Source: a virus
Virus record (IMG/VR): IMGVR_UViG_3300009514_000435
Span: 1 to 64,000 of that record
Length of the DNA: 64,000 nt
Strand: one strand, 5' to 3'
The notes below the pieces were generated by a model, which saw only the letters and a list, made by a program, of their open reading frames with translations, had not been told where the DNA came from and searched no databases. Of the stretch, positions 737-51,377 are shown one piece after another (position 1 is the first letter of the stretch; each line of letters starts with the position of its first letter). Position numbers and translations under genes: made by a program.

Positions 737-1378
737 CTATGGGGTGTATTTTTCTCTGATCTTTTTGGCGATAGTTGAAGCTAAAAAAGGAATTGTTTTA
801 ACAACTTCCATTATATGTTTTGTTGAATAAGTTTCTTTATTCTCATGTCTTTTTTTCCAAATATCTTTCCCGAATTTTTTGTTCTTAGGAAAGGGATGTA
901 GATTATAATCATTTTTTGTAGCCCTTTCCCAAATTCCTTGCCATAAAAAATCAGGAGAACTAGAATGTATTCTTACTTCAGAATTATTAATCATTTTTCT
1001 AACACCATCCACTTGTTCTTTTTTGGGTAATTGAGCAAAATTGTTTTTGGTTCCTAGATATTTATCAGCATTAAAAAAAGCTATCTCTATCGTATATTGT
1101 TTAGAACTTGTACTATTTCCTTTTTTAGTAACCGCACTGTTTGGTGATTCAAATGTAGGTTGCACTTTGTATTCCAAAGTCAGTTTATTTTTTGTCCATC
1201 TGATGTCTTTAAAGAAAGAACCCGAATCGCCTTCGTTTTTTCTTTGCTTAAAAAAGAATTTGTTTCGATTAGATGGCAGACTTTTATCCAATTCCTTTAA
1301 GGTAATAGCTTCAAACAACAATGAGAAATCATTGATGAATGCCTGAAGGTTTCCTTTGTATTGGTCTTTAAATCTCAT
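737..1378 (-). CDS. Hypothetical protein, possible internal head protein
   Basis: 213 residues, last gene before the terminator at 677-715. The N-terminus MRFKDQYKGN resembles the MRFK.FYL.E tag of the neighbouring proteins but lacks the (L/I)xE cleavage signature, so membership in the packaged set is uncertain. The rest is basic and hydrophilic. A Trp-containing segment near residues 140-160 (PDFLWQGIWERATKND) looks like the surface motif SSPxFLWxG common in small phage proteins. No enzyme motif seen. Confidence 0.7.
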   Translation of the reverse strand: MRFKDQYKGNLQAFINDFSLLFEAITLKELDKSLPSNRNKFFFKQRKNEGDSGSFFKDIRWTKNKLTLEYKVQPTFESPNSAVTKKGNSTSSKQYTIEIAFFNADKYLGTKNNFAQLPKKEQVDGVRKMINNSEVRIHSSSPDFLWQGIWERATKNDYNLHPFPKNKKFGKDIWKKRHENKETYSTKHIMEVVKTIPFLASTIAKKIREKYTP

Positions 1379-1379
1379 G

Positions 1380-1778
1380 TTATGATATATATGTGTTTAA
1401 TTCGTATTTACCAGAAGGCATTTTGTAAATGTTTACAATCAATCGGTTTTTGTTGGCTTCTTTACCATCTTTAACTAATTCTAATTTCATCATTTCCATT
1501 TTCTCTGTTTTTGGAGAACCATAGAAACCGCCTGTCCATTCTTCCGAACCACCTGCCAATGCCGTAATACCTAAAGGTTTTAATCCTTTCATAATGGCTC
1601 TGGAAACATCGGCTACGGTGTTGTAATATTCATTAGATTTAAAAGAATTAGAATATTTATTTTTATCTGATCGGGATATAGCAATAGTGCCTTCTACATC
1701 AATAACTTTACCTGTACCCATTGGAGACATCATACCTTCGTTTAATTCTTCACTTTTTAACCATTCTCTAAGTTTCAT
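1380..1778 (-). CDS. Hypothetical protein with putative capsid-targeting leader
   Basis: 132 residues. The N-terminus MKLREWLKSEELNEG contains a short amphipathic helix ending in LNE before G, which fits the (L/I)xE cleavage rule of the T4 prohead protease gp21. The body after the leader is about 118 residues of mixed alpha/beta character with a Gly-rich turn (ITALAGGSEEWTGGFYGS). The gene sits one base from the next and eight bases after the 2H phosphoesterase gene. Packaging into the head is inferred from the leader and context. Confidence 0.7.
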   Translation of the reverse strand: MKLREWLKSEELNEGMMSPMGTGKVIDVEGTIAISRSDKNKYSNSFKSNEYYNTVADVSRAIMKGLKPLGITALAGGSEEWTGGFYGSPKTEKMEMMKLELVKDGKEANKNRLIVNIYKMPSGKYELNTYIS

Positions 1779-1786
1779 ATTGTTAC

Positions 1787-2314
1787 CTATAATTTTATGT
1801 AATATTCTTCATCATGTTTGTTTGTGAAATAAACCTTTTCAACCATATCAACTACACCGTTGAACTTACTATTATTTATAAGGTGATCCCCTTTTCCCTT
1901 CTTAACATAAGCTAATGTAACATGGGGGTGATATTTAGGGAACGTATCTACAGTTTCCATATTATCCGAAATAATTTTATTCATTTCTCTTAGCTTTGGG
2001 CTTTCCACATCAATTTTAAGCACATCATATTCTTTGGCTTCAAATTTGGTGACATCTTTTAACTTGAAATTGACAGTACCGAATCCACCTATTAAAGATT
2101 CCACACCATCAGGAGCTTCTTCGGTAATGCCGTATTTCACAGTTACATGGGTTTTCTCTGGCCACCCGCCATCACCTTCTTCGGTGAACAAATCTTCATT
2201 CTTGATATTCGCTTTGGCGAATGACTCTATTTTCTTTGCCAGACTTGGCGATAAATTTAACATAGCACAAGAATAGCTATGAGCTTCTTCTAAATAAAAT
2301 TGCTTAAATCTCAT
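1787..2314 (-). CDS. 2H phosphoesterase with capsid-targeting-like leader
   Basis: 175 residues. Two HxT motifs, H56-V-T58 in EKTHVTVKYG and H131-V-T133 in HPHVTLAYV, lie 75 residues apart, the hallmark of the 2H phosphoesterase/RNA ligase T-like superfamily, whose members hydrolyse 2'-5' or cyclic phosphodiester bonds. The protein opens with MRFKQFYLEE followed by A, matching in form the T4 internal-protein leader with an LEE cleavage site, so it is probably packaged and injected. T4 Acb1, a 2H enzyme, destroys cyclic nucleotide signals of CBASS immunity, so a similar anti-defence role is possible. RNA end repair or NAD/ADP-ribose chemistry are alternatives. It overlaps the metalloprotease gene by 11 bases. 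Confidence 0.85.
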   Translation of the reverse strand: MRFKQFYLEEAHSYSCAMLNLSPSLAKKIESFAKANIKNEDLFTEEGDGGWPEKTHVTVKYGITEEAPDGVESLIGGFGTVNFKLKDVTKFEAKEYDVLKIDVESPKLREMNKIISDNMETVDTFPKYHPHVTLAYVKKGKGDHLINNSKFNGVVDMVEKVYFTNKHDEEYYIKL

Positions 2315-3530
2315 AAGGCGACACCCTCTTTACCATTTCTTTCACTTTCGGGAAAACAGCTTTAGAACCATAAACAGTGTACATTGAAAACGCTTCACAC
2401 CATGCTTCTTCTGAGTTTGTATGAGCATACCCAGTGATAGGAGTGGAATGAACTCTTATCTTAGTTTCCCCACCATTATCAATATACTCTTTTAAACTAT
2501 CAAAAGACCAAACAGTATCTATAAGTTGTTTGTACATATTCATATTGAGAATACCTTCTATCTGCAAATACATAATTGGGTCTTTTTTCTTAATCTCTTT
2601 ATTCATAAAAGGCGATTTATCTTTACCGCCACTATATTTTCTATAGACTTCTCTCAAATCCAACTCACCAAAGTTACCAGATATAAACATACTCCACTGT
2701 TTTTGTTTTTGTTTGGTTAAAACAGTTCGATATATATGATGTCCCATTTCATGGACTAAGACTTGGGCGGTTGCTCTAGGATTCTGTTTAAAAACATTTG
2801 AGTAAAGAATAAGTTTCGCATTTCTTCCTCTCCCATCATACCTACCACCATCATCCAAAGTGACTTTTGATGTAATGTCTACTACAATAGGAACCTGTTG
2901 CATATGTTTTTTAAATGGGGTTTTATTAGCAATCTCTAATGTTTTCGTTAAACTCTGAATGGTTTCTTTAGGGGTGTGAAAACCTTTTCTTCCTGATTTC
3001 AAAATAACCTTATACCCTCTGATGTTCAATTGTTCTGTTTTTTCTTCATCTACATTTAATTCTTTTTCTTTCCAATCCTTCAACCACTTGATAAATTCAT
3101 CTAATGTTGCCCAAGCCACTCTGGAAGTTCTTCTGATTCTACCTTCCCATTTTTTTAGTTTATCGGAAAAATCATAAAACCTAGCTTCTTTAGTCCAATA
3201 ATCATCTGCCAATTCAATAGGAACTCTAAATTGTATATACAAAGCCCACAAATCTTTTCTTAATCGTTTATCCCAGTATTCGTGGTCGGATTCTGATAAA
3301 TCTTTATTCCATTTTAAAGCATCCAACGCATGATAAATTTCCCTTGAATAATTCTCAAAACTTTCTGCCCAGTTTTCGACATACTTCCCCCATTTATGAG
3401 CAGTATCATAATTTTCTAGGGCTTTAGGATTCTTAGCATTTTTCATTAAAGTCAAAAAGTCTTTTCTAAGGCTTTTAACCTTAGATGTATTCAACTTCCC
3501 TTCCGTTAAATAGAATTTCTTAAATCTCAT
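2304..3530 (-). CDS. Zincin metalloprotease with capsid-targeting-like leader
   Basis: 408 residues. H260-E261-M-G-H264 (VLVHEMGHH) is a HExxH zinc site, and the segment NSEEAWCEAF at about 373-381 supplies a likely third ligand glutamate in the gluzincin manner. Residues 1-10 are MRFKKFYLTE, followed by G, a leader like the T4 capsid-targeting sequence with LTE as cleavage site. Residues 20-160 are helical and very rich in Trp, Lys and Asp (for example RIRRTSRVAWATLDEF). The protein probably travels in the head and acts in the infected cell, or matures something in the prohead. The ATG overlaps the stop of the 33-residue gene before it, with GGAAAGGG as ribosome binding site. Confidence 0.85.
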   Translation of the reverse strand: MRFKKFYLTEGKLNTSKVKSLRKDFLTLMKNAKNPKALENYDTAHKWGKYVENWAESFENYSREIYHALDALKWNKDLSESDHEYWDKRLRKDLWALYIQFRVPIELADDYWTKEARFYDFSDKLKKWEGRIRRTSRVAWATLDEFIKWLKDWKEKELNVDEEKTEQLNIRGYKVILKSGRKGFHTPKETIQSLTKTLEIANKTPFKKHMQQVPIVVDITSKVTLDDGGRYDGRGRNAKLILYSNVFKQNPRATAQVLVHEMGHHIYRTVLTKQKQKQWSMFISGNFGELDLREVYRKYSGGKDKSPFMNKEIKKKDPIMYLQIEGILNMNMYKQLIDTVWSFDSLKEYIDNGGETKIRVHSTPITGYAHTNSEEAWCEAFSMYTVYGSKAVFPKVKEMVKRVSPYEI

Positions 3531-3628
3531 TTCCCTTTCCTCAACTGTTTCAGGGGAGAATCCGTATACATGATTTTATAGAACAAAAACAGAACCAAGA
3601 AACCCATTAGAATTACAAGGTTTCTCAT
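3527..3628 (-). CDS. Small single-span membrane protein, 33 aa
   Basis: The ATG at 3628 overlaps the stop of the upstream gene (TAATG), and the TGA overlaps the ATG of the metalloprotease (ATGA), so the frame is locked into a chain of coupled genes. The product starts MRNLVILMGFLVLFLFYKIM, one hydrophobic span, and ends with a basic tail (LKQLRKGK). It lacks the packaging-type leader of its neighbours. It might help the injected proteins cross or anchor at the membrane, but that is only a guess from position. Confidence 0.65.
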   Translation of the reverse strand: MRNLVILMGFLVLFLFYKIMYTDSPLKQLRKGK

Positions 3629-3951
3629 TACCCAATTACCCATGCCTTTTTAATTCTTTCCCAATTTCCCGATTTCACATAAATTTTGGCTTTCTCTTTG
3701 GTTAACACATTGGTAGCAAACTCATTGAAATTAATATCGCCTTTTGTTTTCGGTCTAGTGTGGTCTTTAGCTAACAATTCTTCAAGGAATTTCTGCATAG
3801 AACCCACATTTGCAGGATCATCATTCAACTTGATATAATGCCTCTGGTTTGTTTCTGTGTTGAGTAAAGACCACCTCTTAGCGGTTTTCTTAATTTCAAA
3901 TATGCTCCACTTATTTCGGCCTTCTGTTAGGTAAAACTCTTTAAATTTCAT
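3628..3951 (-). CDS. Hypothetical protein with capsid-targeting-like leader
   Basis: 107 residues, beginning MKFKEFYLTE followed by G, nearly identical to the metalloprotease leader and with an LTE cleavage signature. The mature part (about 97 residues) is basic and Trp/Lys-rich, with a beta stretch (SIFEIKKTAKRWSLLNTE) that could bind nucleic acid. It overlaps the genes on both sides (four bases upstream, TAATG downstream). The leader implies packaging in the head. The function after injection is unknown. Confidence 0.75.
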   Translation of the reverse strand: MKFKEFYLTEGRNKWSIFEIKKTAKRWSLLNTETNQRHYIKLNDDPANVGSMQKFLEELLAKDHTRPKTKGDINFNEFATNVLTKEKAKIYVKSGNWERIKKAWVIG

Positions 3952-4382
3952 ACCGCCCCCGACATTCCACTACTTACAGATAGAGCTTGTCTAGCCACCA
4001 TCTTATCCAGATTCTTGTCAAAAAATTTCCCTCTTTTGTCTTTTTCTTTTTCTTCTTCATCATTTTCACCAACCAATAAAGCTGTAGGTAAACTTTGCCA
4101 GAACACTTTGGGCAGCATTCCTTTAAGTTTTCGTCTTAAATTGGGTTTTAAGTTTAAAAAATCTCTTTTAAAAATGCTCACAAAACCTAAATTTCCTGTC
4201 AGATTATCAGATATTTCCTTCTCTTTGCCTTTATTTTTTTTAAAAACGTTGGGCAATATTTTAGTCAACCACCCCTTATGATCTAGTTCGCTTTTGAAGT
4301 CAATATAATTCCCTTTAGTGTACTCCACATGGGGAGTTTCTTCGAGAAACTTTTCTATAATATAAAATTCTTTAAACTTCAT
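3948..4382 (-). CDS. Hypothetical protein with capsid-targeting-like leader
   Basis: 144 residues with N-terminus MKFKEFYIIE followed by K. IIE fits the (L/I)xE rule, though Lys in the next position is less usual than Gly or Ala. The body is strongly basic with many Lys/Arg clusters (NVFKKNKGKEKEIS, RRKLKGMLPKVFW) and ends with a hydrophobic small-residue stretch (RQALSVSSGMSGAV). The basic nature fits a protein packed with DNA. A TATAAATA box lies 46 bases upstream of its ATG inside the preceding gene. Confidence 0.75.
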   Translation of the reverse strand: MKFKEFYIIEKFLEETPHVEYTKGNYIDFKSELDHKGWLTKILPNVFKKNKGKEKEISDNLTGNLGFVSIFKRDFLNLKPNLRRKLKGMLPKVFWQSLPTALLVGENDEEEKEKDKRGKFFDKNLDKMVARQALSVSSGMSGAV

Positions 4383-4759
4383 TCTAATTCCTTATAAAAC
4401 AAAGAGATTGGCATATTAAATTCTAAAATATTTATATTTCCATCCTTTTCTAATAAACGAACAATAACTCCTGTTTCATCTTTGGGGAGCCATCTAGTAC
4501 CTGCTAAGTCTTTGACAAACGTGTTATCTTCTCTTCTAAATAAAAAAAGAGGAATCCCTTGAAACTCCCCTTTAGTTGCTATGTATATCAAATCGGCATG
4601 ATGTTGTTTTCTTATGTTATCGTTTAGCTCAAAAGCTATGTTTTTTAACTTTTTGGTATCATCTGCCAAATTAATAACTTTATTGTTTTTAGTATTAACT
4701 GCCCGATATTTCAAAAGTGTACGAACAAAACCCGCAATTACTGGAAAAGACTGTTCCAT
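4379..4759 (-). CDS. Hypothetical protein, 126 aa
   Basis: 126 residues without the leader seen in its neighbours. It overlaps the next gene by four bases (ATGA). It reads as a compact alpha/beta protein with alternating hydrophobic strands (GIPLFLFRRED, TGVIVRLLEKDG, INILEFNMPI). There is no strong ribosome binding site before the ATG, so translation is probably coupled to the upstream gene, whose stop lies eight bases away. No family recognised. Confidence 0.7.
   Translation of the reverse strand: MEQSFPVIAGFVRTLLKYRAVNTKNNKVINLADDTKKLKNIAFELNDNIRKQHHADLIYIATKGEFQGIPLFLFRREDNTFVKDLAGTRWLPKDETGVIVRLLEKDGNINILEFNMPISLFYKELE
4429..4436 (-). promoter_or_regulatory. Late promoter TATAAATA
   Basis: Exact T4 late octamer on the minus strand, 46 bases before the ATG of the gene ending at 3948. 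It lies inside the coding region of the previous gene, so a chance match in AT-rich DNA is possible. Confidence 0.5.
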
Positions 4760-4767
4760 TTGATTAT

Positions 4768-5160
4768 CTATTTCTTTCGTTTGAAGCCGAATATCTGTCG
4801 CTTCAGATTAGATATTTTCCTTTTAATTAGAATTTGTGCCTTTTTTGCTTTTCTTTTAATAGCACCCAACTTTTGGCTTTTCTTTTTCTGCCTGATTTCA
4901 TCAGGAGCCATTTTCTGTACAGTTGGTCTGCCACCATCAGGATCGGGAATTACTTTATGATTTGGGATTTCCGTTGTCCATCTTTTCTTTTTCTTTCCAT
5001 TCCTGATTACTATTTTCTTGACAAGTCTTTGGAATCCTTCTTCCATATTGTCATTTTCATCAATGTCAAAATCTTCTTCAGTGTATACTGCGAAGGCATC
5101 TTCTTCTAATTCGTCTTCAGAATCATTATTTTCGTTGTAATATTGTTTAAAAGCTGTCAT
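4768..5160 (-). CDS. Acidic/basic two-part protein, possible prohead core component
   Basis: 130 residues. Residues 1-45 are very acidic (NNDSEDELEEDAFAVYTEED). The C-terminal half is very basic with a Lys/Arg-rich helix (LGAIKRKAKKAQILIKRK). Small proteins with this acidic-to-basic plan, the central pattern G(K)xxxRxT and a C-terminal R/K helix are common near the prohead genes of T4-type phages, where T4 has core proteins gp67 and gp68. The first residues, MTAFKQYYNEN, resemble the packaging leaders of its neighbours without a clear cleavage site. It has its own late promoter at 5185-5192. Confidence 0.65.
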   Translation of the reverse strand: MTAFKQYYNENNDSEDELEEDAFAVYTEEDFDIDENDNMEEGFQRLVKKIVIRNGKKKKRWTTEIPNHKVIPDPDGGRPTVQKMAPDEIRQKKKSQKLGAIKRKAKKAQILIKRKISNLKRQIFGFKRKK

Positions 5161-5184: not shown

Positions 5185-5192
5185 TATTTATA
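5185..5192 (-). promoter_or_regulatory. Late promoter TATAAATA
   Basis: Exact T4 late octamer, 24 bases before the ATG at 5160, located at the stop of the preceding small gene. Confidence 0.8.
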
Positions 5193-5324
5193 TTAATAAT
5201 CTTCTTTCCAACGATGTTCGCTGAAATCTAGTTCTTGGGGTTCATCATCATAATCATTAATATTCGTATCAAAAGCGTTTTCTTCGGTATCAACTGATAA
5301 TTCGTTTTCTTCTCTGGGATACAT
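5193..5324 (-). CDS. Very acidic small protein, 43 aa
   Basis: The ATG at 5324 overlaps the stop of regA (TAATG) and is preceded by GGAGGT within the regA end, so translation looks coupled. The 43-residue product (MYPREENELSVDTEENAF...) has about a third acidic residues and a single Trp near the end. T4 gp67, the internal prohead core protein, is likewise a tiny acidic protein next to gp68, but no alignable similarity can be claimed here. Confidence 0.65.
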   Translation of the reverse strand: MYPREENELSVDTEENAFDTNINDYDDEPQELDFSEHRWKEDY

Positions 5325-5719
5325 TATTCTGTTACCTCCGTACCTATTATGTTAAATTTGTGCGATATGCTCCAATATTTCTTTTCTTGAAACGGTAAGA
5401 CATAAACAAATTCATTGTGAGGTTCAATATCTTGTTCATCAACTAGTTCGATTAATCCCCAGTTTTTCATACAAAAAATAATTGAATTTTTTCTTTCTAA
5501 ATCTTTTTCACTGATATTATTGTACCCATTTGGTCTTGTTAAAAGGAACATTTCTTTGAAATGTACTATATAAAATTCTTCAAAATTTTGATATAGATAA
5601 CATGATGGGTAAAGGATATTTTTCTTTTTATTAGCTATCCCTATTCTAGTTAAGGTTTCTTTTACAACCTTTAAATCTGCTTTTGGTATGACTTGAACCA
5701 AATTCTTAATTTCACTCAT
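5324..5719 (-). CDS. regA: RegA translational repressor
   Basis: 131 residues. The segment VKETLTRIGIANKKKNILYP followed by SCYLYQ and YIVHFKEMFLL, then SIIFCMKNWGLIELV, follows the T4 RegA pattern (KETLTRMGIANNKDKVLYQS, YYIVHFKEM, DWGLIEIV). T4 RegA is a 122-residue RNA-binding protein that occludes the start regions of many early mRNAs. In T4 it sits in the replication gene cluster. Here it is among late structural and internal-protein genes, with its own TATAAATA box 42 bases upstream. That suggests late expression, perhaps to shut down early translation. Confidence 0.92.
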   Translation of the reverse strand: MSEIKNLVQVIPKADLKVVKETLTRIGIANKKKNILYPSCYLYQNFEEFYIVHFKEMFLLTRPNGYNNISEKDLERKNSIIFCMKNWGLIELVDEQDIEPHNEFVYVLPFQEKKYWSISHKFNIIGTEVTE

Positions 5720-6639: not shown

Positions 6640-6647
6640 TATTTATA
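6640..6647 (-). promoter_or_regulatory. Late promoter TATAAATA
   Basis: Exact T4 late octamer 21 bases before the ATG at 6618. It marks the switch from the sugar cluster back to virion genes. Confidence 0.85.
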
Positions 6648-7476
6648 TAATCCCGCTAATATACTCTCGAATGTCGCCTTTTGGGTTATAATTCAAATCT
6701 TTTTTACTTTCGCTTATATCGGAAACAACAACATCATCTTCACCTTCTCTTGCAGGAATAAACTGTATTACATTCCTAAACATCTTGGCGATCTCAAGAA
6801 TAGAATAACTTTTACCTGAAGCTAGGTTGTATGTTTTTCCTTTTGGGTCTTTCGACATCAAGATAAGACCTTCTACTATATCATCCACATGAACAAAATC
6901 TCTCTTTTGTTCACCTGTTCCAGTTACAGTCAACGGTTGACCTGTTCTGGTCTGTCTTTCAAATATCCCAATTACTGTTGCAAAATCACCTTGTTCTATC
7001 TGCCGATTACCATATACATTGAAAAATCTGGCTATGGATATAGGCAAATTGTAGATATTTCGGTACATTTTGCAAACTTCCTCTCCTGCCCATTTAGAGA
7101 ACGAATAAGGACTTAAAAATTCCCCTTCATAAAAAGAACAAGAACCCGCATAAACCAGTTTTGCACCTCTATCTACGGCTATCTGACATATTTTAGAAGT
7201 TCCTTGTATATTCACTGCGGTTGTTCGTTCTGGGTTCTTCAGACTAGGCTGAATCCTAGAAACCCCCGCCAGATGAAAAACTACATCCAATTCCTCTGGA
7301 ACATTCCAATCATCCGATAAAATATCATTGACCTGATAATCCACACCCTCTATCATGTTCTCATAATAACCTGTTGACATATCATCAATCACTGTTACAG
7401 AATGGTCTTCTGATAACAACCTCTCCACTAGATTGGAGCCAATAAAGCCCATTCCACCAGTTACTAGAATATTCAT
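6643..7476 (-). CDS. NAD-dependent sugar epimerase/dehydratase (extended SDR)
   Basis: 277 residues from the ATG at 7476 (MNILVTGGMGFIGSNLVERL), which overlaps the upstream stop in ATGA. The Rossmann motif GGMGFIG and the later pattern YSFSKWAGEE, containing the catalytic YxxxK, mark an extended short-chain dehydrogenase like GalE or related nucleotide-sugar 4-epimerases and dehydratases. FFNVYG and the HVDDIV stretch are also typical. Which nucleotide sugar it acts on cannot be told. It is the last gene of the sugar cluster. Confidence 0.88.
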   Translation of the reverse strand: MNILVTGGMGFIGSNLVERLLSEDHSVTVIDDMSTGYYENMIEGVDYQVNDILSDDWNVPEELDVVFHLAGVSRIQPSLKNPERTTAVNIQGTSKICQIAVDRGAKLVYAGSCSFYEGEFLSPYSFSKWAGEEVCKMYRNIYNLPISIARFFNVYGNRQIEQGDFATVIGIFERQTRTGQPLTVTGTGEQKRDFVHVDDIVEGLILMSKDPKGKTYNLASGKSYSILEIAKMFRNVIQFIPAREGEDDVVVSDISESKKDLNYNPKGDIREYISGII

Positions 7477-8558
7477 GGGTACATCCAATTTTCATCATTG
7501 ACTACTATTTCGGCCAAATCTTTTTTCTCTTTAAATTTCTTTTTTTTGAACTTCTCTTCCATGAATTTTCGATACTTATTAAACCTTTTTTCATTATTAT
7601 CCATAATTTCGGTGGAAAGTAAGATATCGTGAAACAGGTGATATGTATTTACCTTTTCATTATTCAGTTCTTTGTATTTACAGATATATTGGATTCTAAA
7701 ATTAAATTCAGCATCTTCCAAACCATATCCAACATAATCGGTATTGTAACCTCTAACTTTTTGAAAAGATTTCAAATGAATTAAACCATTCCCAGGAGCA
7801 ATACCAAAAGGTGTTCTCGAAATATCTGGATTAATTTTGAAAAAGAGTGCATAATCATTGAAATTGTCTGAATAGAAATTCCTGCCCAAATTATAATTGT
7901 TAAAAACAACCCGCACTGGTTTTTTAAACGAAACTTGTTTTTTCATTTCGTCTACATAAGTCGAAGGATAAATTAAATCAATATCTGATAATAAAAAATA
8001 AGGAGTAGTTATCATTAAATTCACACCCAAATTAATGGTCAAGGGTTTATTGTAGGTTTCTAGAAATGTAGGTCTGTGTTGATAACTAATATTACACAGA
8101 TTTTTAATAGCATCATAGATACATTCGGTTGAAGTGTTACATACACAGATATTGACTTTCTGGTTTCTTATGCTTTTAATTGAAGCAATTAGCCTCTCCA
8201 AAGCACCTTGTCTGCTTTTGCCTTCAAAGTGAAACGGGAATAACATATCAAACTTAGAAGAATGATTATCCCAATATTTCTCTTTTTTTTCTTCTATAAC
8301 TTTTTTCACATCGTAAAATTTATCCCCATAAATTTTCCGTTCCGTTGATAAAGTGTGAATGACTTTTTCATAATGTCTTAACTTTTTATTCTTAGCCTCA
8401 AGTTCTTCAACCATAGATGGTGGTATGTTCCACAACTCCTGTGGATACTTTTCAGCTATGCCATCTGGAATAACATAATACTTTCCATTACAAGGAATTC
8501 GCTTCCCTATTTCTGTAATGAAAAGGTCTATCGGTTTCTTGTTAAGAACTACTGCCAT
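7473..8558 (-). CDS. GT-A glycosyltransferase (galactosyltransferase-like C-terminal domain)
   Basis: 361 residues. The middle carries a DxD-type metal site (LLSDIDLIYPS), and the segment APGNGLIHLKSFQKVRGY followed by GYGLEDAEFNFRI matches the family of bacterial chondroitin-polymerase and galactosyltransferase-like enzymes, in which NG...F...RG(Y/F)(N/D) and the EDxE/EDxD acids bind the acceptor. The first 90 residues form a separate region with a coiled coil (VEELEAKNKKLRHYEKVI), and the C-terminus is Lys-rich. It should transfer a sugar from a nucleotide donor to a glycan, in the cytoplasm. It overlaps its neighbours. Confidence 0.8.
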   Translation of the reverse strand: MAVVLNKKPIDLFITEIGKRIPCNGKYYVIPDGIAEKYPQELWNIPPSMVEELEAKNKKLRHYEKVIHTLSTERKIYGDKFYDVKKVIEEKKEKYWDNHSSKFDMLFPFHFEGKSRQGALERLIASIKSIRNQKVNICVCNTSTECIYDAIKNLCNISYQHRPTFLETYNKPLTINLGVNLMITTPYFLLSDIDLIYPSTYVDEMKKQVSFKKPVRVVFNNYNLGRNFYSDNFNDYALFFKINPDISRTPFGIAPGNGLIHLKSFQKVRGYNTDYVGYGLEDAEFNFRIQYICKYKELNNEKVNTYHLFHDILLSTEIMDNNEKRFNKYRKFMEEKFKKKKFKEKKDLAEIVVNDENWMYP

Positions 8559-9732
8559 TGATTACTCCGTTAATTAATTCACAGATAAACTCAATATCTT
8601 CTTTCGCCATCAACTGATGATTCGGAACATATAAACCGTACTTGTCTATCTTATTAGCAAAGGGTAAATATGTTTCATGTTTTAGTTTCCCTTTCAGGAA
8701 AGGTTGAAATTCCATTGAGCCACAAATCAAAGGTCTTACTTCTACATTGTTATCCACCAGTGCTTCGCTTATTTCGTTTGCCTTCGGGTGTATAATGGGG
8801 TATGCGAAATTGGAAACAATATCAAAATCATAATCGTTTTTCTTTTTCCAATAATCATTTACAATCAATTTATCATATAATCGGAAATTAGCATCCCTAA
8901 CCGCACAAGTCCTATTCAATTTAGTCATTTGTCTCAATCCAATATAAGCCTGTAGGTCTGTCGCTCTAAGGTTAAACCCTGCATAATAAAAAGAATACAA
9001 TGATTTAAACTCTGAAATATTATGTTCAGTTCTTAACCGTTTCTGTTCGTCTGTATCCACATCCCGATCCCATCCATGACTTCTTATCATTTTAAGAACA
9101 TTATAAAGTTCCTTATCATCAGTACAAACCATTCCACCTTCAATAGTAGACATATGATGTCCGAAATAAAAAGAAAAAGTGCTCATTAATCCAAATGTGC
9201 CTGTTTTCTTTCCAACATAAGTCGAACCAACAGATTCGCATGAATCTTCTAAAACGGTAACACCATATTCATCACACATACTATGAATATCTATCATTTC
9301 ACAAGGGAACCCCAACACCTGTACTAATAGCAATGCTGATACATCTGGATGTTCTTTTAATATCTCTCCCAAACTACCTACACTTATACCCAAGGTTTCT
9401 TTGTCACTATCACACAGGATAGGTTCAAAACCTAATTGGATTAAGGGAGCCACAGTGGTAGCCCAAGATACCGCAGGAACTATTATTTTATTGCTTTTGA
9501 GTTTCCCAAGTAATTTGTAAGCATAGACCATTAATAAATTAGCCGAACTTCCTGAATTGACATAAACGGAATATTTACATCCTGTCCAATCAGACCATTC
9601 TTGTTCAAACTTCTCTGTCTGTTTACCTTTTGTTAATCGGGGTTTTGTTTTTAGCCACTTTATTAGATGTTTAATGTCATTTTCATCAATAGTATCTTCA
9701 ACCAACTTGATGGCTTTTCTTGTATTCTTCAA
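8542..9732 (-). CDS. DegT/AHBA-family enzyme with His at the PLP lysine position, ColD-like 3-dehydratase
   Basis: 396 residues from a TTG start. Typical DegT/DnrJ/EryC1 aminotransferase features are VNSGSSANLL (residues 58-67), PAVSWATTVAPL, EDSCES and STFSFYFGHHMSTIEGGMV. At the position where aminotransferases carry the PLP-binding Lys this protein has His192. That replacement is the mark of ColD and of CDP-4-keto-6-deoxyglucose 3-dehydrases, which remove the C3 hydroxyl. With a Fcl/ColC-like reductase upstream, the product may be a GDP-3,6-dideoxyhexose such as colitose. No GDP-mannose dehydratase is seen here, so the substrate would come from the host or another locus. Confidence 0.85.
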   Translation of the reverse strand: MKNTRKAIKLVEDTIDENDIKHLIKWLKTKPRLTKGKQTEKFEQEWSDWTGCKYSVYVNSGSSANLLMVYAYKLLGKLKSNKIIVPAVSWATTVAPLIQLGFEPILCDSDKETLGISVGSLGEILKEHPDVSALLLVQVLGFPCEMIDIHSMCDEYGVTVLEDSCESVGSTYVGKKTGTFGLMSTFSFYFGHHMSTIEGGMVCTDDKELYNVLKMIRSHGWDRDVDTDEQKRLRTEHNISEFKSLYSFYYAGFNLRATDLQAYIGLRQMTKLNRTCAVRDANFRLYDKLIVNDYWKKKNDYDFDIVSNFAYPIIHPKANEISEALVDNNVEVRPLICGSMEFQPFLKGKLKHETYLPFANKIDKYGLYVPNHQLMAKEDIEFICELINGVINGSSS

Positions 9733-10633
9733 TTGTTTTCACCAACCCTGTTTCGATTTCAATTTTTGCTTTCCAACCTAAATTATTTATACGGCTCACA
9801 TCTAAACATTTTTTCATCATACCATCTGGTTTTTCAGTATTGAATTTAAACTCACCATCATATCCAACTAAATATTTGATTAAATAAGCCAATTTCCTGA
9901 TAGATAAATCTTCGCCTGTTCCTATATTTAAAAAAGTCTCACTTGATTTAACATTATTCATTGACCATATCATACCATCGATCAAATCGTCTATATACAG
10001 AAACTCCCTACTCTGATTTCCTGAACCCCAAACTTCGACTTCTTTTACACCATCCCTATGGGCATCACAAATCTTTTTCACTAATGCGGATAGAACATGA
10101 CTTGTTTCTAAATCATAATGATCACCTTCTCCGTATAGGTTACAAGGCATAAGGGAAACGAAATCAGTATCAAATTCTTTATTCGCATACTCGCACAACT
10201 TCAACCCTGCTATCTTAGCCAAAGCATACCCTTCATTAGTAGGCTCCAAAGGTGCTTCTAACAAATATTCCTCTTTCAATGGTTGTTTATAATCCTTCGG
10301 ATAGATACAACTTGAGCCTAAAAAAAGAACCTTTTTCACTCCTGTCTTAACACAAGCGTTAATAATATTATTCTGCATTACCAGATTATCATGTAAGAAT
10401 TTATAAGGATTATCCATATTAGCCTTAATACCCCCCACCACCGCAGAACAGACAAATACAAAGTCAAACCCATAACTTATTGCACCCATTGTGTTGTGTT
10501 GGTGTAAAAGATCTATTTCTTTTCTATCAAATGTATGGACATTAGTATATCCATCATCTTTCAGCTTCTTCAGTAAAACACCACCCACAAACCCAGTATG
10601 TCCTGTCACTAATATTGAACTATTCTTATACAT
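9698..10633 (-). CDS. GDP-L-fucose/GDP-colitose synthase-like epimerase-reductase
   Basis: 311 residues. Contains VTGHTGFVGGVLLKKL (Rossmann GxxGxxG), VGGIKANMDNPYKFLHDNL, LGSSCIYPK and EGYALAKIAGLKLCEYA (YxxxK). These are hallmarks of GDP-fucose synthase Fcl, which epimerises C3/C5 of GDP-4-keto-6-deoxymannose and reduces C4. The related ColC performs the same chemistry after ColD. As the ColD-like gene follows and overlaps by 35 bases, a ColC role is plausible. The cluster also holds a fucosyltransferase-type GT10, which would suit a plain Fcl role. Confidence 0.9.
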   Translation of the reverse strand: MYKNSSILVTGHTGFVGGVLLKKLKDDGYTNVHTFDRKEIDLLHQHNTMGAISYGFDFVFVCSAVVGGIKANMDNPYKFLHDNLVMQNNIINACVKTGVKKVLFLGSSCIYPKDYKQPLKEEYLLEAPLEPTNEGYALAKIAGLKLCEYANKEFDTDFVSLMPCNLYGEGDHYDLETSHVLSALVKKICDAHRDGVKEVEVWGSGNQSREFLYIDDLIDGMIWSMNNVKSSETFLNIGTGEDLSIRKLAYLIKYLVGYDGEFKFNTEKPDGMMKKCLDVSRINNLGWKAKIEIETGLVKTIEEYKKSHQVG

Positions 10634-10634
10634 A

Positions 10635-11312
10635 TTAACCTACATATTTAAAAACACTATCAGGGTTACCATGAGTAATCAATTTATATCCTATACATAA
10701 TAACATGTCATTGACTTCAGAAAAAGTAGAAGCGTTTTGAAAAAAATCAGTCACGCCATCTATCTCTACATTAATCAGTTTAGGTCTAATATCCCCAAAA
10801 CCGCTTATGATTTCTTTAACAACACCTTCAACATCCATATGTAAAACATCTATTTCTGTGATATTATTCTCATTACAAAACCTCTCAATAGTAATACATG
10901 GAACACTTATCGGTTTCTTTGAATATTTCAAATGTGTAAATTGGTTTTCAGCCTTTTTAGTCGCTTTCAATAATGAACCTGCTGGTGCTGAACTGGTAGT
11001 CACTTGAGTTCCATTATATTCGGGTCGTATACACTCATAATATTCGACTTCACCTACTTTTTTAAACACAGCATAATTAAAAATATTTATTCCATGTTTT
11101 TCTAAAGGTTTAATCTTATTGTAAATTGTAGGGTTTGCCTCAAAAGAATACACTTCAGCATCAGGGAAATTCCTTTTAAAGATAATACTATCACCACAGT
11201 CAAAACATCCTACATCGAATATAACTTTCGGGTTCTTTCCCAGATGACTATGAATAACATCCGTTCCAATAGAACCCGAATAAAACTTATGGCCATCTAA
11301 TTCAAAATACAT
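10635..11312 (-). CDS. FkbM-family methyltransferase
   Basis: 225 residues. The S-adenosylmethionine site is seen in PKVIFDVGCFDCGDSIIF (residues 28-45), followed by VYSFEANPTIYNKIK. The acidic/hydrophobic motif IDVLHMDVEGVVKEII is characteristic of the FkbM family, which O-methylates sugars and other secondary metabolites. It starts with the ATG at 11312, overlapping the stop of the nonulosonate synthase gene by one base. In this cluster it probably caps a sugar hydroxyl. Confidence 0.88.
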   Translation of the reverse strand: MYFELDGHKFYSGSIGTDVIHSHLGKNPKVIFDVGCFDCGDSIIFKRNFPDAEVYSFEANPTIYNKIKPLEKHGINIFNYAVFKKVGEVEYYECIRPEYNGTQVTTSSAPAGSLLKATKKAENQFTHLKYSKKPISVPCITIERFCNENNITEIDVLHMDVEGVVKEIISGFGDIRPKLINVEIDGVTDFFQNASTFSEVNDMLLCIGYKLITHGNPDSVFKYVG

Positions 11313-12151
11313 TATATTTTTCTCAATTTGGCTTTCACTGGAATTTCGCTATTTTCCACTTTAAGTTTACCATCACCCATACCCGCTTCAAATGCTTCAA
11401 TGAAATCTCTAATTTTTAAAACCCCTGCGGTTTCAATTGAAGCAGATTGATCACTACCATACATAGTTCTATCTGTTGTAATATGATATTCAATCATTTC
11501 AGCACCCATAACTTGAGCCTGAAGAATATAAGCAATACCAGACGAATGATTAGAAAACCCTATTGAGTGATGATCTTCAAATAACATCTGTAAAGTTTCG
11601 ATCTTTTTCATATTCATTTCTTCTGGTGGAGTTGGGTAACTTGAAACACAAGATAGAATATACGCAGGATCTACATAATTTAAACATTTAAAAATTTCTT
11701 CTTCAGTACTCATACCCACAGCAACAACGACTTTCGTATAAGTATCTTCTACGGCTTTATCAATAGCTTCTAATAATTCAATATTAGTAACCATTGCGGA
11801 AGCAACTTTGATATACTCAGGTTTATATTGCATTAAAAAATCAACAGACTTCACATCCCAAGGAGAACCAAACCAACCAATACCTTTCTGTTTACAGTAA
11901 GCATCAATTTTATCAAATTGTTCTTTACCAAATTCCAGACCGTTTTTCTGTTCTCTATTTGTAGTTCCAAAAGGAGATTCTCTTGGAGCATCTAATTCCT
12001 CTTTGGTATACACATCTTCAACAGTTCTTTTTTGAAATTTTACAAATTTACAACCACCAGAAATTGCCAAATCAATTAATTTTTTTGCTTGTTCAAGAGA
12101 ACCATTATGGTTAATCCCTATCTCACCAACTAATATTGTTTTCATTTTCAA
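11312..12151 (-). CDS. neuB: NeuB-type nonulosonate (sialic acid-like) synthase without SAF domain
   Basis: 279 residues. VGEIGINHNGSLEQAKKLID, CKFVKFQKRTVEDVY, GWFGSPWDVKSVDFL and IKVASAMVTN follow the NeuB TIM barrel, which condenses phosphoenolpyruvate with an N-acyl hexosamine to a nine-carbon acid. Known NeuB proteins are near 340 residues and end with an antifreeze-like SAF domain that helps bind substrate in the dimer. Here the protein ends at VKAKLRKI, so that domain is absent. The CMP transferase at 19588-20295 would activate the product. Confidence 0.9.
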   Translation of the reverse strand: MKMKTILVGEIGINHNGSLEQAKKLIDLAISGGCKFVKFQKRTVEDVYTKEELDAPRESPFGTTNREQKNGLEFGKEQFDKIDAYCKQKGIGWFGSPWDVKSVDFLMQYKPEYIKVASAMVTNIELLEAIDKAVEDTYTKVVVAVGMSTEEEIFKCLNYVDPAYILSCVSSYPTPPEEMNMKKIETLQMLFEDHHSIGFSNHSSGIAYILQAQVMGAEMIEYHITTDRTMYGSDQSASIETAGVLKIRDFIEAFEAGMGDGKLKVENSEIPVKAKLRKI

Positions 12152-12828
12152 TTCTCCTTATACCTTATTAAATATTTATTAAATAAATCTGAATGTTTTT
12201 CAATTATTTTATCATCCCATTCTTTAAAATCTATTCCAGAATTAATCGAATGATAACGCAAATGTTCCCCTTTAGTGGAACTACCCTTTTGAGTGTTTAA
12301 ATCATATGATTCAACAGATATCTTTTTATAGAAATCGTATTTATCCATAAAAAAATTTAAGTTTTTTTCTTTTAAGTTTAAAAACTTTACACATTTCAAT
12401 AATTCTTTTTTTGGATTCATGATTAAATCTTCATAGTAAATTAATAGTTTTTTATCTCTAGGCCATTTGTGATATTCATTAATGTTTTCCATATAATTAT
12501 AAGGAGATTTATTTTGTCCTAAAATTACATCATTGTAATCTTGTTTCTGTTTAATAACGCATTCCTTATAATTTCTCAATAATAAAATAAGTTTTGACTT
12601 ATTGTAAACATCCTTATTAGTAGCAACCTTGCCATATATACGATCTTTTTCATATAAAGAATGTTCTTTTCTCAATATATAGTCACCAGAAACATTGATA
12701 TGTTTTCTTATTTCTTTTATATAATCATTATCAGGATATGTTGGTCTATGAGAAATGTTTTCTATACAAAACCTCAACCAACTGTTTGCACATCTAGGGT
12801 AGGATAACAATATACAACATTTGTTCAT
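12148..12828 (-). CDS. Sulfotransferase
   Basis: 226 residues. Starts MNKCCILLSYPRCANSWLRF; the PRCANSW segment (residues 11-17) is the 5'-phosphosulfate-binding loop of PAPS-dependent sulfotransferases, and KLILLLRNYKECVI provides the 3'-phosphate-binding RNxxE segment. The middle has YYEDLIMNPKKEL, the common (Y/F)EDL...P segment. It would move sulfate from PAPS to a glycan hydroxyl. It is a paralogue of the gene at 13144-13812, the two separated only by a cupin gene. Confidence 0.82.
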   Translation of the reverse strand: MNKCCILLSYPRCANSWLRFCIENISHRPTYPDNDYIKEIRKHINVSGDYILRKEHSLYEKDRIYGKVATNKDVYNKSKLILLLRNYKECVIKQKQDYNDVILGQNKSPYNYMENINEYHKWPRDKKLLIYYEDLIMNPKKELLKCVKFLNLKEKNLNFFMDKYDFYKKISVESYDLNTQKGSSTKGEHLRYHSINSGIDFKEWDDKIIEKHSDLFNKYLIRYKEN

Positions 12829-13157
12829 TCTACTTTTCCACTTTCTTCGGTACGGTATGAATCTTCTTCCATATGTGTTGTGGATATTTCGTAAATCACA
12901 CTATCTTCTAAGCCTGTAAACCTGTGTTTAGTATTTGGAAATATACGAACCTGTTCACCTTCAGACATTTCAAAGGAACCAATATCTTCAGTTTCCATTT
13001 TAACTTTACCTGAATGTAAAATAAACGTTTCATCTTTTATTTTATGAGAATGCATACTACACCTGTATCCCTTATTCAAGTGTAGTTTTTTAAAACAATA
13101 TAATTCATTGTTTACAATCCATTCTTCTTTACCCCAAACCTTTTCAACTATTTCCAT
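12825..13157 (-). CDS. Cupin-fold sugar enzyme/binding protein
   Basis: 110 residues. The cupin motifs are visible as CSMHSHKIKDETFILHSGKV (first) and PNTKHRFTG (second), giving a metal site of His residues and Glu. Small cupins of this kind in glycan clusters resemble the C-terminal half of mannose-6-phosphate isomerase/guanylyltransferase or single-domain sugar isomerases. It lies between two sulfotransferase genes and overlaps both. A role in isomerising a sugar phosphate or handling a nonulosonate precursor is inferred only. Confidence 0.8.
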   Translation of the reverse strand: MEIVEKVWGKEEWIVNNELYCFKKLHLNKGYRCSMHSHKIKDETFILHSGKVKMETEDIGSFEMSEGEQVRIFPNTKHRFTGLEDSVIYEISTTHMEEDSYRTEESGKVE

Positions 13158-13812: not shown

Positions 13813-13814
13813 TT

Positions 13815-14114
13815 CTATTCTCCAATATGGTGCATATCAAAAGCATGAACAGCTTTATCATCAATTATCATATCATAAAAAGGTTTACCTAATTCCAAGC
13901 TATCATACTTACATCCCCATTTATTTAGTTGTTCAACAGTCAAGGCAGTCCAATCTATTTTCGTTGTTGTACCTCTAGCTGTCCAATAGATTATATGATG
14001 ACCTTCATCATATAAAGAATTTATCTTGTCGATATTATTTTGAATAGGTTCCGCTTCTTCGTATTTATCGCCCGTATTACAAATAGTTCCATCAATGTCA
14101 ACTCTTATTATCAT
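13815..14114 (-). CDS. HAD-like phosphatase
   Basis: 99 residues. RVDIDGTICNTG holds the DxDGT nucleophile/acid pair of HAD phosphatases, IIYWTARG supplies the conserved Thr of motif II, and DMIIDDKA provides the acidic motif at the end. The small size without a cap domain matches capsule-biosynthesis-type HAD proteins that act on sugar phosphates or hold a nucleotidyl-sugar intermediate. A 4-base overlap links it to the radical SAM gene. Confidence 0.87.
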   Translation of the reverse strand: MIIRVDIDGTICNTGDKYEEAEPIQNNIDKINSLYDEGHHIIYWTARGTTTKIDWTALTVEQLNKWGCKYDSLELGKPFYDMIIDDKAVHAFDMHHIGE

Positions 14115-44669: not shown

Positions 44670-45341
44670 TTACTTTACAAGTTTCCATGTGAACTCAACG
44701 ATCTTGTCAATAGGCATTGATAAGAATCGTTTCCTCTGATCTAATGACAAAGCACCATGAACAGTTAAAATGGCATTGGCCGTAGTCATATCAACTATTC
44801 TGCCACCTATTTTATCATACTGCTTATTCTTTATTATCTCTTTCAATTTCTTTAAAACATCAAGCCCTTCATTGATGTATTCTTCATTTTCTTCTAATTT
44901 TTTAATTTCATTGACAGAATATCCGACAGATTTCAAAAATTTTCTAGCTTCATCTTTAGACATACCACCCGCAACATTAACACCCGCATCAGACATTTTT
45001 AAAGTAGATTTAGCTATCTTTAATTGGTGTTTTTGCGGAACCGTTAATGTTTTCTTAGCTTCATTTAAATACTCCAAATCTTCATACCCCTCTTTAATGT
45101 TTTCTTGGAATCCTTTTGTTTTCCAAGCCACATCTGTCAATCTTCCGAAAGGCATACTGGCCATTATTTTCTTTTTTTCTTTTGGAAGCATATCATACGC
45201 ATCCATAATTGCTCTTGCGGTTTTAACATCCATGTCATAATCGCCAACCTTTTGCATATCTGCATCAGATTTCATTTCAGCAATCTTCCTGATATCTCTA
45301 ATCAAGGAACCTTCTTCTATATAGTAGTTTGAAAATCTCAT
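44670..45341 (-). CDS. Putative injected internal protein with capsid-targeting-like leader
   Basis: 223 residues. N-terminus MRFSNYYIEE followed by G fits the tag of the proteins at 1787-4382. IEE, LNE|A (at AKKTL) and INE|G (at GLDVL) are three potential (L/I)xE cleavage sites, so the chain could be cut into pieces. A motif 'D..TA.AI........(K/R)(K/R)..SMP......WK' occurs twice: DVKTARAIMDAYDMLPKEKK and DMTTANAILTVHGALSLDQR. The middle stretch KKTLTVPQKHQLKIAKSTLK is basic. It sits between sheath and tube genes, away from the other tagged proteins. Confidence 0.72.
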   Translation of the reverse strand: MRFSNYYIEEGSLIRDIRKIAEMKSDADMQKVGDYDMDVKTARAIMDAYDMLPKEKKKIMASMPFGRLTDVAWKTKGFQENIKEGYEDLEYLNEAKKTLTVPQKHQLKIAKSTLKMSDAGVNVAGGMSKDEARKFLKSVGYSVNEIKKLEENEEYINEGLDVLKKLKEIIKNKQYDKIGGRIVDMTTANAILTVHGALSLDQRKRFLSMPIDKIVEFTWKLVK

Positions 45342-45351
45342 AAAATACCCT

Positions 45352-45679
45352 CTATATGTATTTATAATTCATAAACCTATTTGATGAAGATTTTAATCTA
45401 TAATTAATAGTTTGATGTTTAATACCTGTTCGTGTTTCTGCTTCATAAGTATTTTTATAAAAAACTTCACCTATTTTAAAAGGTTTTTTACTTAATGTTT
45501 TAGAAATATCAAAGAAATTTCAAGGAAAAAACAATCCTTTTTATATTTTCTTTACCATATTTCTTAACAGCCTGTTTAATTAATTTTCCAGATCCTAAAT
45601 ACCCATCATTAGCACTAGTATTGTGTTTACCAACATATATTTTATTGTTAATTAAATTTGTAGTTTTATAAATTATCAT
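45352..45679 (-). pseudogene. Broken GIY-YIG homing endonuclease
   Basis: From the ATG at 45679 the frame reads MIIYKTTNLINNKIYVGKHN, the GIY-YIG opening, then GYLGSGKLIKQAVKKYGKEN, and stops at 45503. In the next frame the sequence continues as SKKPFKIGEVFYKNTYEAET and TINYRLKSSSNRF, the NUMOD1-like DNA-binding end, to a stop at 45352. The central linker and catalytic residues between are missing, so the gene has lost an internal piece and its frame. It fills the only stretch over 300 bases without an intact gene. Located directly after the sheath gene. Confidence 0.82.
45359..45366 (-). promoter_or_regulatory. Late promoter TATAAATA
   Basis: Exact T4 late octamer 17 bases before the ATG at 45341, inside the end of the endonuclease remnant. 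Confidence 0.82.
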
Positions 45680-50002: not shown

Positions 50003-50791
50003 TTATTTCAAATAATCACGAAATCTCAAAGCAAATTCTTCATTTTTATTTTTCCTGTTTTTCTTAGCCTTCATATCTGGTTTAGCTTTTTTCTTAGGCT
50101 TTTTTGCTGATGCTTTCGTGATTTTAGGTTTTTCTTCCTTCTTTGGTTCGACTTTAGGTTTTTCTTCCTTCTTTGGTTCCTTTTTCTTGAGAACAGGTTT
50201 AACTTTCGTAGATTTCTCTACATTTTTCTTCTGTTCTTTTTCAGACTTTTTAGTTTCAGCTTCCTTTTCTTTTTTTTCAGCATCTTCTTTTGCTTTTCTA
50301 TTTTTAAATGCAGTGGCGACAGAACCACCAACATCCTTTGCGGTAGACACACCCACATCAACAGTCGAAGCAAGTTCTTTATCTGCGGATCTTAAACCAG
50401 CTTTTGCTACATTTGTTCCTTTTTCTTTAGCTTTAGAAAGAAACGCCTTTAATCCAGAACCAACCGCTTTAGCCGTTGAACCACCTTTACCTTTCTTTTT
50501 TTCTGCTTTCGACTTTGTTTTAGGTTCGTCTTTTTTAGCAGGTTTATCATCACTTTTTGAGGGTTCACCATCATTCGGTTTACTACTCTTAGTAACCATA
50601 CCTAAACCCTGTTTCTGTTCATCACTCAAAAACCCTTCTTTGTTAAGATGAGCTAAAAGACCTTGAGCGTATTTTTTTTCTGAAGGAGAAACATCAGGAT
50701 CGGAAATTACTTTTTTAAGTTGAGCTTTTGTACTTTTAACCCATGCTTCATTTTCTTCCATTGGTTTTTTTAAATATTCCTTATAGCTCAT
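50003..50791 (-). CDS. Lys/Glu-rich low-complexity protein next to the terminase
   Basis: 262 residues with very high Lys content. Residues 1-90 are mixed (MSYKEYLKKPMEENEAWVKS, SPSEKKYAQGLLAHLNKEG), the middle (VGSGLKAFLSKAKEKGTNVA) is Ala/Gly/Lys, and from about 165 on there are repeats such as KKEEKPKVEPKKEEKPKITK. It ends EEFALRFRDYLK. The start MSYKEYLKKPMEE resembles the packaging leaders but lacks a clean (L/I)xE site. It may be a DNA-coating internal protein. Overlaps the next gene by four bases. Confidence 0.65.
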   Translation of the reverse strand: MSYKEYLKKPMEENEAWVKSTKAQLKKVISDPDVSPSEKKYAQGLLAHLNKEGFLSDEQKQGLGMVTKSSKPNDGEPSKSDDKPAKKDEPKTKSKAEKKKGKGGSTAKAVGSGLKAFLSKAKEKGTNVAKAGLRSADKELASTVDVGVSTAKDVGGSVATAFKNRKAKEDAEKKEKEAETKKSEKEQKKNVEKSTKVKPVLKKKEPKKEEKPKVEPKKEEKPKITKASAKKPKKKAKPDMKAKKNRKNKNEEFALRFRDYLK

Positions 50792-51033
50792 ATTTTATTT
50801 TTCCTCTTAATGGTTTTAATATCTCTAATATCTGTTTTATCAATCATTCCACAATGCAGAAGTTCATTAATCGTTTTTTCATCAAAAGAAGCTATCTTAT
50901 CAAGCAATACCCTTTTCCTTTCTTTAAAAGTCTTGCCTTTCTTGATCTCCCCAATTGGCTCTATCCTTTTCAAAGGTTTTGATGAACCATGTCTTTGGAT
51001 TCCTGCACTTCTGAAACTCGAACCTATTTCCAT
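50788..51033 (-). CDS. Small hypothetical protein with sheath-like N-terminal peptide
   Basis: 81 residues. The N-terminus MEIGSSFRSAGIQRHGSSKP shares FRxxGIQR with the sheath gp18 start (SFRTPGIQRSE), and the rest is basic (IKKGKTFKERKRVLLDKIAS). The peptide could be a shared docking strand, or the protein may be a small tail component. It overlaps both neighbours by 4 and 10 bases. No known T4 counterpart. Confidence 0.65.
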   Translation of the reverse strand: MEIGSSFRSAGIQRHGSSKPLKRIEPIGEIKKGKTFKERKRVLLDKIASFDEKTINELLHCGMIDKTDIRDIKTIKRKNKI

Positions 51034-51377
51034 TCAATACCTCTATTTTTTTGTTTCAATGATTCGTTGAAACAAAAATCATGTAACTTTTCTTTAACTA
51101 ATTGAGTCTTTGCCTTTTTAATATTTATCCTAGTCACCCGACTAAACAATTCCCTAGACACCTTATTATCTCTATGGCCCAACACATCCACCAAGGAGCC
51201 GAAATCTTTTTCCTCTATAATCATTTTCAACTTATTGAACCAATCTTTTTGTTGTTCATAAATTTCTTCCCTTGTAATCTTACCCCAATGTCCTCTATTG
51301 TAATATTTATTAAAGGTTTTCTCGAAAATGTTTTTATGTTGTTCTTCTTTGTAAAATTTTTTAAAACTTAGAGACAT
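51024..51377 (-). CDS. Hypothetical protein, possible internal head protein
   Basis: 117 residues. N-terminus MSLSFKKFYKEEQHK resembles the M(K/R)FK.FYL.E leader, but the residue before EE is Lys, so no (L/I)xE cleavage site. The body is helical and basic (KKAKTQLVKEKLHDFCFNES). It overlaps gp16 by one base. It might be a relative of the packaged proteins that has lost, or never had, the cleavage site. Confidence 0.6.
   Translation of the reverse strand: MSLSFKKFYKEEQHKNIFEKTFNKYYNRGHWGKITREEIYEQQKDWFNKLKMIIEEKDFGSLVDVLGHRDNKVSRELFSRVTRINIKKAKTQLVKEKLHDFCFNESLKQKNRGIEWK

Follow-up and report, generated by a model that had tools for sequence, protein, structure and literature searches.

The proteins that bacteriophage T4 injects are a textbook case, and few of their functions are known (restriction inhibitors and an ADP-ribosyltransferase). 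Here we describe a window of 64,000 bases (bases 1-64000 of the 66,496-base virus contig G000, nearly all of whose genes are on the minus strand), in which unrelated proteins share a short N-terminal leader that resembles the capsid-targeting sequence of such T4 proteins. In T4, this sequence is carried by IPI, IPII, IPIII and Alt (Mullaney and Black 1996, reviewed in PMC9026906; for T-even Ip genes see PMC12373910). Mapping of IPIII assigned targeting to residues 4 and 7 and processing to residues 8 and 10, and the protease gp21 cuts after L/I-x-E (PMC9026906). No published description of the leader in the present clade was found, in a literature coverage that was incomplete.

A 10-residue leader of the form MxFxxFYLxE is common to five minus-strand genes of the window, named here by their lower coordinates (1787, 2304, 3628, 3948 and 44670; the higher coordinates in Table 1 are their first bases). 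A DNA pattern written for the leader matched at these five sites and had no match in 100 dinucleotide-preserving shuffles of the window. Every start in the original prediction exists and is the first start codon of its open reading frame (ORF), and a Shine-Dalgarno sequence is present in most cases. Codon choice in the leader varies between the window copies, and the tagged bodies have no mutual similarity from residue 13 onward (no pair below E 0.1). Therefore, this is not a duplicated gene, and sequence comparison confirmed the earlier view of the leader as a mobile, separable N-terminal module on unrelated proteins. A looser regular expression matched 8 of the 76 G000 genes, with about 0.9 expected by chance. 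Two window matches, a glycosyltransferase at 22631 and an internal start at 36035, were discarded as false positives, in line with the chance expectation for 76 genes. The DNA pattern, the regular expression and the gene calls were our own and were made after the window leaders had been seen; thus, relatives and cultured controls provide the fairer test.

Relatives emerged from searching 2.9 million viral contigs for sheath homologues and for the leader pattern. The pattern scan yielded only nine matches in seven stretches, six of which were true gene starts on unrelated proteins. The relatives include G003 (202 kilobases (kb), capsid protein 69% identical), G008 (19 kb, capsid protein 93% identical) and G005 (75 kb; its metagenome sample also contains a capsid gene that is 72% identical). 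When compared with order-sensitive shuffles of the same residues, leader-like starts occurred in 30 of 347 genes in G003 (4.4-4.7 expected, two runs), 16 of 107 in G005 (1.8 expected), 5 of 24 in G008 (0.6 expected) and 23 of 435 in G013 (5.1 expected), and the leader was over-represented in five related contigs (z 6.0-12.1). The search over the rest of the genome and its relatives, which had been proposed as a check, thus found leaders strongly over-represented in related uncultured phages. Eight cultured T4-superfamily phages (T4, Cr30, Mosig, S-RSM4, HTVC008M, phiN3, Melnitz and immuto) showed no enrichment (z at most 2.7). As a positive control, T4 gave seven pattern hits, including ipII, ipIII, alt, gene 24 and gene 2 (by annotation). 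T4 gene 2 (76061-76885), which codes for the DNA-end protector, starts with MAIFQIINE|S (bars mark the junction after the glutamate), and its match to the pattern may be due to chance.

Orthologues support the leader at several loci. The 3628 protein is 48% identical to its G003 orthologue (164336), which has a different leader (MGRFIDTYYE|GRN, compared with MKFKEFYLTE|GRN in the window) and the same E|GRN junction. The 44670 protein has a domain of about 60 residues in duplicate; its orthologues keep the leader (MRFTNYYLEE|S in G001, MKFKQFYLEE|T in G002), G002 also has a tagged single-domain copy starting with MKFREYLKED, and no homologues were found in cultured phages. Weaker starts had been proposed at 737, 4768, 50003 and 51024, and the last three gained support from orthologues with clearer leaders. 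The G003 orthologue of 4768 (163823, body 50% identical) starts with MRNFKEFYLQE|T, the G002 orthologue of 50003 (3922, 37% identical) with MTYKNYLNEE, and those of 51024 with MSLSFKRFYEEE (G002) and MSRRSFKQFYRQE (G003). At 737 and 1380, the sequence alone is suggestive of longer leaders; that of 737 would end in SLLFE|A, which resembles KLFE|A of the capsid protein, and that of 1380 in ELNE|G. T4 ipI also has a longer leader, MKTFKEFTSTTTPVSTITE|A (the cut position is our reading of the motif).

Comparison with T4 identified homologues of gp15, gp17, gp18, gp22, gp23 and RegA on the contig (T4 gene names follow annotation or general knowledge). By these homologies, therefore, the phage is a member of the T4 superfamily. 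Its sheath is at most about 31% identical to those of cultured phages, the capsid protein of the clade reaches about 35% at best, and no closely related cultured phage turned up in the collections that were searched. We could not detect gp21 on G000 because the contig ends just upstream of gp22, where gp21 would come next. The gp21-type protease (Peptidase_S77), whose presence the original prediction had suggested checking, is thus missing from the contig, whereas it was found in G003 (E 4e-30) and, alongside gp22 and gp23, in the nearest relative, G008 (E 2e-33).

All five strong window leaders have L or I at position 8 and E at position 10, with an aromatic residue at position 7. G008 carries MEGFREFLAE|A on the second gene after gp21, and positions 4, 7, 8 and 10 of this leader are F, F, L and E; most G003 leaders (WxxYLxE, FxxLLNE) fit these positions when counted back from the E. 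At the site where T4 gp23 reads FLTE|A, the capsid proteins retain LFE|A or LFE|G. The likeness to the T4 capsid-targeting sequence was supported by the unrelated bodies, the gp21 motif, the gp21/gp22/gp23 lineage, this capsid-protein site, the recovery of T4's packaged proteins and the preference for late units described below.

Of all upstream octamers, the T4 late promoter, TATAAATA, shows the strongest enrichment in G000, G003 and G008, as it does in T4. In the related contigs, 63 of 95 leader genes lie in units led by TATAAATA, compared with 379 of 1245 other genes (pooled p 5e-12; G003 p 1.5e-5, G005 8e-4, G013 3e-4, G011 0.03). In G003, G005 and G013, the CCA-adding enzyme is tagged and its gene belongs to a late unit; the G011 enzyme, which is 45% identical and has no tag, does not. 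For an enzyme that is made late and carries a head leader, packaging fits better than housekeeping. The original prediction would have been refuted by tags on many clearly non-virion proteins, and here the result is ambiguous, as tagged enzymes such as the CCA-adding enzyme and NUDIX are normally intracellular, yet they occur in late units.

The proposed arsenal had included a 2H phosphoesterase and a metalloprotease, for which 1787 and 2304 are the window candidates. Both H-x-T motifs are present in 1787, and H56, H131 and T133 are invariant in the alignment. Its best Pfam match is Acb1 (E 9.4e-6; 25.9 bits, about 1 bit short of the cut-off of 27), followed by 2_5_RNA_ligase2 (E 3.2e-5); it also matches PHROG 755 (E 3.8e-13), and in a profile search of PDB structures Acb1 (7t26) was best (E 1e-3), with cyclic phosphodiesterases matching too. 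Judged by these profiles, 1787 appears to be a 2H phosphoesterase nearest to the Acb1 and 2'-5' RNA ligase-like families. The 2304 protein has an HExxH motif (HEMGHH), which is retained in a 28%-identical jumbo-phage homologue lacking the leader; its match to SprT-like proteins is weak (E 0.023), and it is a probable metalloprotease. Single-sequence fold predictions for 1787 and 2304 (mean predicted local distance difference test (pLDDT) scores of 30 and 38) were not used. No close relatives of either protein were found in viral contigs. Alignments with most 1787 homologues begin only at residue 12-19, and homologues without the leader include a Maribacter phage 2H protein, the jumbo-phage HExxH protein and the CCA enzymes of Tunturi_5 and G011. 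In an uncultured jumbo phage (LR745206, L043 2989-4305), a 2H phosphoesterase is fused to a DnaQ-type exonuclease (by eye), and its start, MKLKKYKQFIKE|S, fits the T4 leader pattern.

Tagged proteins of the relatives include CCA-adding enzymes (E 6e-33 and 2.5e-30), NUDIX (E 6e-16), an AAA ATPase (E 7e-13), CTP_transf_like, read as NMNAT-like (E 8e-8), and ART-PolyVal (E 2.9e-25, leader MRFDEYYLTE|S). A 5'-nucleotidase, named from its homologues, is tagged in three phages, and a polynucleotide-kinase-like protein was named by similarity to the G003 PseT homologue. Among G003 genes with T4 homologues, only that of nrdC.10 has the leader and the replication genes lack it. The G003 DNA ligase (MRIVDILDE) was rejected as tagged because T4 gp30 itself begins with MILKILNE, and the start is native. 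In two gp21-bearing phages (L143 1712-4104, L140 1807-4086), the CCA-adding gene is broken near residue 117 by an ORF that is GIY-YIG-like (named by eye); no match to a known intron was found in Rfam.

What the sequences themselves show is a mobile leader in a late-promoter setting, with T4-type head genes and a matching cleavage motif. T4-type capsid targeting followed by gp21 cleavage is the best explanation, and we consider it very probable. Late in infection, the aromatic residues of the leader would anchor tagged proteins to the gp22-type prohead core; cleavage by a gp21-type protease behind the glutamate of L/I-x-E would follow and leave the mature bodies in the head with the DNA. We infer that effector bodies would reach the host cell together with the DNA and be active ahead of phage gene expression; injection, and any defence role, are proposed by analogy with T4 biology (PMC12373910, PMC9391042, PMC3012670). 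The Acb1-like 1787 protein could then serve as a pre-emptive breaker of cyclic-nucleotide signals or RNA ends. As one presumably removable tag is found on many unrelated proteins, including enzymes that might disarm host defences or repair the damage they cause, it is probable that the virus brings a set of prepared tools along with its DNA.

Several observations weigh against capsid targeting and cleavage. The window leaders lack an aromatic residue at position 4 (K or S is found there) and have aromatics at positions 3 and 6. Of the 62 leaders with L/I/V/M/F-x-E, only 19 carry A, G or S directly after the predicted cut (P1'), and the count of such sites is itself biased because the search pattern required E; therefore, not all leaders need be cut, and cutting is less sure for 3948 with its P1' lysine. 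The gp21 of this phage is itself off the contig, and the G005 contig has no head genes. In G000 alone, the late-unit enrichment reaches only p 0.055, and the tagged genes of G008 show no excess of the late motif.

In an alternative reading, the leader docks proteins on the prohead core and is cut, but the majority of the tagged set would serve as core, scaffold or structural helpers, as gp67 and gp68 do, and would be degraded or remain in the head, with few or no injected effectors. Several small tagged G008 proteins lie directly between gp21 and gp22, and 44670, located between the sheath and tube genes, repeats a single small domain. However, the CCA-adding, NUDIX, NMNAT-like, ART-PolyVal and 2H phosphoesterase proteins have no obvious assembly role, and the T4 ADP-ribosyltransferase Alt is injected (by annotation). 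We find this explanation rather unlikely; some small tagged proteins may be core components rather than effectors, and for some tagged proteins near gp20-gp23 a place in the prohead core is the more likely one. It is less probable still that the leader directs proteins elsewhere (tail, baseplate, host membrane or replication compartment) with cleavage irrelevant. The position of 44670 among tail genes and the range of P1' residues, which are not limited to small ones, would agree with such a signal, but the leader matches the T4 targeting determinants and the gp21 motif, the same pattern recovers T4 head-interior proteins, and leader genes in G008 flank gp20-gp23.

Finally, the shared starts could come from chance or base composition, as AT-rich gene starts yield short N-termini that look alike, or from a DNA-level translation-initiation signal. 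MKF or MRF starts are common in AT-rich genomes, and two matches in the window are false positives. This explanation has practically no probability left and is already refuted by the order-sensitive shuffles (z 6-12), the varying codons, the orthologues that retain the leader while their bodies diverge, and the cultured phages that are not enriched. Returning to capsid targeting, a broader proposal, which in our view could equally turn out right or wrong, is that these phages package pre-made enzymes to be used in the opening minutes of infection, and that each was recruited when it acquired an interchangeable leader of about 10 residues: the CCA-adding enzyme, the polynucleotide-kinase-like protein and the 2H phosphoesterase for RNA and tRNA repair, the nucleotidase, NUDIX and NMNAT-like proteins for nucleotide and nicotinamide adenine dinucleotide (NAD) handling, ART-PolyVal for host modification, and proteolysis. 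If so, Acb1-type counter-signalling and tRNA repair would be carried in the virion and not made after infection.

Several neighboring genes and other shared starts were also observed. The RegA-like translational repressor (42% identical to T4 RegA) is directly upstream of the tagged cluster, and RegA is likewise beside tagged genes in G003. The glycan-gene block within the structural region contains a NeuB-type synthase (E 4e-56), a cytidylyltransferase (E 2e-18), a sulfotransferase and radical SAM genes, together with epimerases, aminotransferases and glycosyltransferases identified by eye; it may serve virion or host-surface modification. A single plus-strand, lipoprotein-like gene with a Fib_succ_major domain (E 1.7e-27) is a possible clue to the host. 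In G010, a gp21-bearing phage (L158-L163), genes 38446, 71565, 76906 and 77996 share another start of about 25 residues (like MIFRDYLEIMTRQEMRRAANAGQTNL), found next to its CCA enzyme and perhaps another leader family. In the cultured Flavobacterium phage immuto_3-5A (MW353176), genes 103762, 117587 and 118588 have different bodies behind a common start similar to MENFDLKKFLVENKLTxNSxxLxE, perhaps another capsid leader.

Table 1. Features of the window and of the adjoining contig end (aa, amino acids; leader positions in parentheses)
Feature	Position	Strand	Leader or remark
213-aa protein gene	737..1378	minus	possible longer leader MRFKDQY...SLLFE|A; SLLFE|A at residue 23
132-aa protein gene	1380..1778	minus	possible longer leader MKLREWLKSEELNE|G
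Putative 2H phosphoesterase gene	1787..2314	minus	MRFKQFYLEE|A (2285-2314)
408-aa HExxH protein gene	2304..3530	minus	MRFKKFYLTE|G (3501-3530)
107-aa protein gene	3628..3951	minus	MKFKEFYLTE|G (3922-3951)
144-aa protein gene	3948..4382	minus	MKFKEFYIIE|K (4353-4382)
T4-type late promoter	4429..4436	minus	TATAAATA; 54 bases before start of 3948-4382
130-aa protein gene	4768..5160	minus	degenerate leader MTAFKQYYNEN
T4-type late promoter	5185..5192	minus	TATAAATA; 32 bases before first gene of tagged cluster
RegA-like gene	5324-5719	minus	
Glycan-gene block	6643-24147	minus	about 17 kb
Fib_succ_major gene	34609-35607	plus	
223-aa protein gene	44670..45341	minus	MRFSNYYIEE|G (45312-45341); between sheath and tube genes
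T4-type late promoter	45359..45366	minus	TATAAATA; 25 bases before 44670-45341
262-aa protein gene	50003..50791	minus	weak leader MSYKEYLKKPMEE
117-aa protein gene	51024..51377	minus	weak leader MSLSFKKFYKEE
Major capsid protein gene (gp23-type)	64183-65382		just beyond window
gp22-type scaffold gene	65437-66264		just beyond window

With the leader as a guide, candidates for packaging can be read straight off the sequence; one genome gives about 20 or more, among them several recognisable enzymes. What a phage brings along with its DNA thereby becomes a directly testable question, and the candidates suggest that counter-defences such as signal-nucleotide cleavage and tRNA repair can travel in the particle. 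Compared with known systems, this one is a large, enzyme-rich and much expanded variant of the T4 internal-protein system. In both, unrelated proteins begin with a leader about 10 residues long that has an aromatic residue at position 7, L/I at position 8 and E at position 10. Both also have late genes and, in the lineage, a gp21-type protease, gp22 and gp23, and T4 ipI starts with MKTFKEF, close to MKFKEFY of the window. The differences are that the clade is uncultured, that its consensus is MRFKxFYLxE or MxWKxYLxE rather than MKTYQEFIAE, that its cargo includes recognisable enzymes, and that the 202-kb relative has a net of at least 20 candidate tagged genes, whereas at least 10 Ips have been reported over all T-evens.

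In the giant phages phiKZ and SPN3US, a gp21 relative cleaves many head proteins behind a glutamate, and these proteins leave the head together with the DNA (PMC5694885, PMC9026906), as is predicted here; however, their propeptides are mostly far longer than 10-20 residues and lack a shared short leader, and the phiKZ motif is S/A-x-E. N-terminal residues of P1 DarB send this counter-defence protein, and a reporter, to the capsid (PMC9024508), again as predicted here, but such targeting is reported for one large protein, P1 has no separate scaffold and no repeated leader on many proteins has been described. Polyvalent proteins, including ART-PolyVal, are likewise predicted early-injected effectors (PMC5512222), whereas the domains in this clade are separate proteins, each with its own leader, and not one giant fusion. 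Finally, profiles place 1787 in the 2H fold family of T4 Acb1 (gene 57B), an anti-CBASS nuclease (CBASS, cyclic-oligonucleotide-based antiphage signaling system; PMC9117128), and the two have both H-x-T motifs in common. The 1787 protein is about 23% identical to 57B in the alignment, falls below the Pfam cut-off and, unlike 57B, carries a head leader, and any cleavage of CBASS cyclic oligonucleotides by it is putative.

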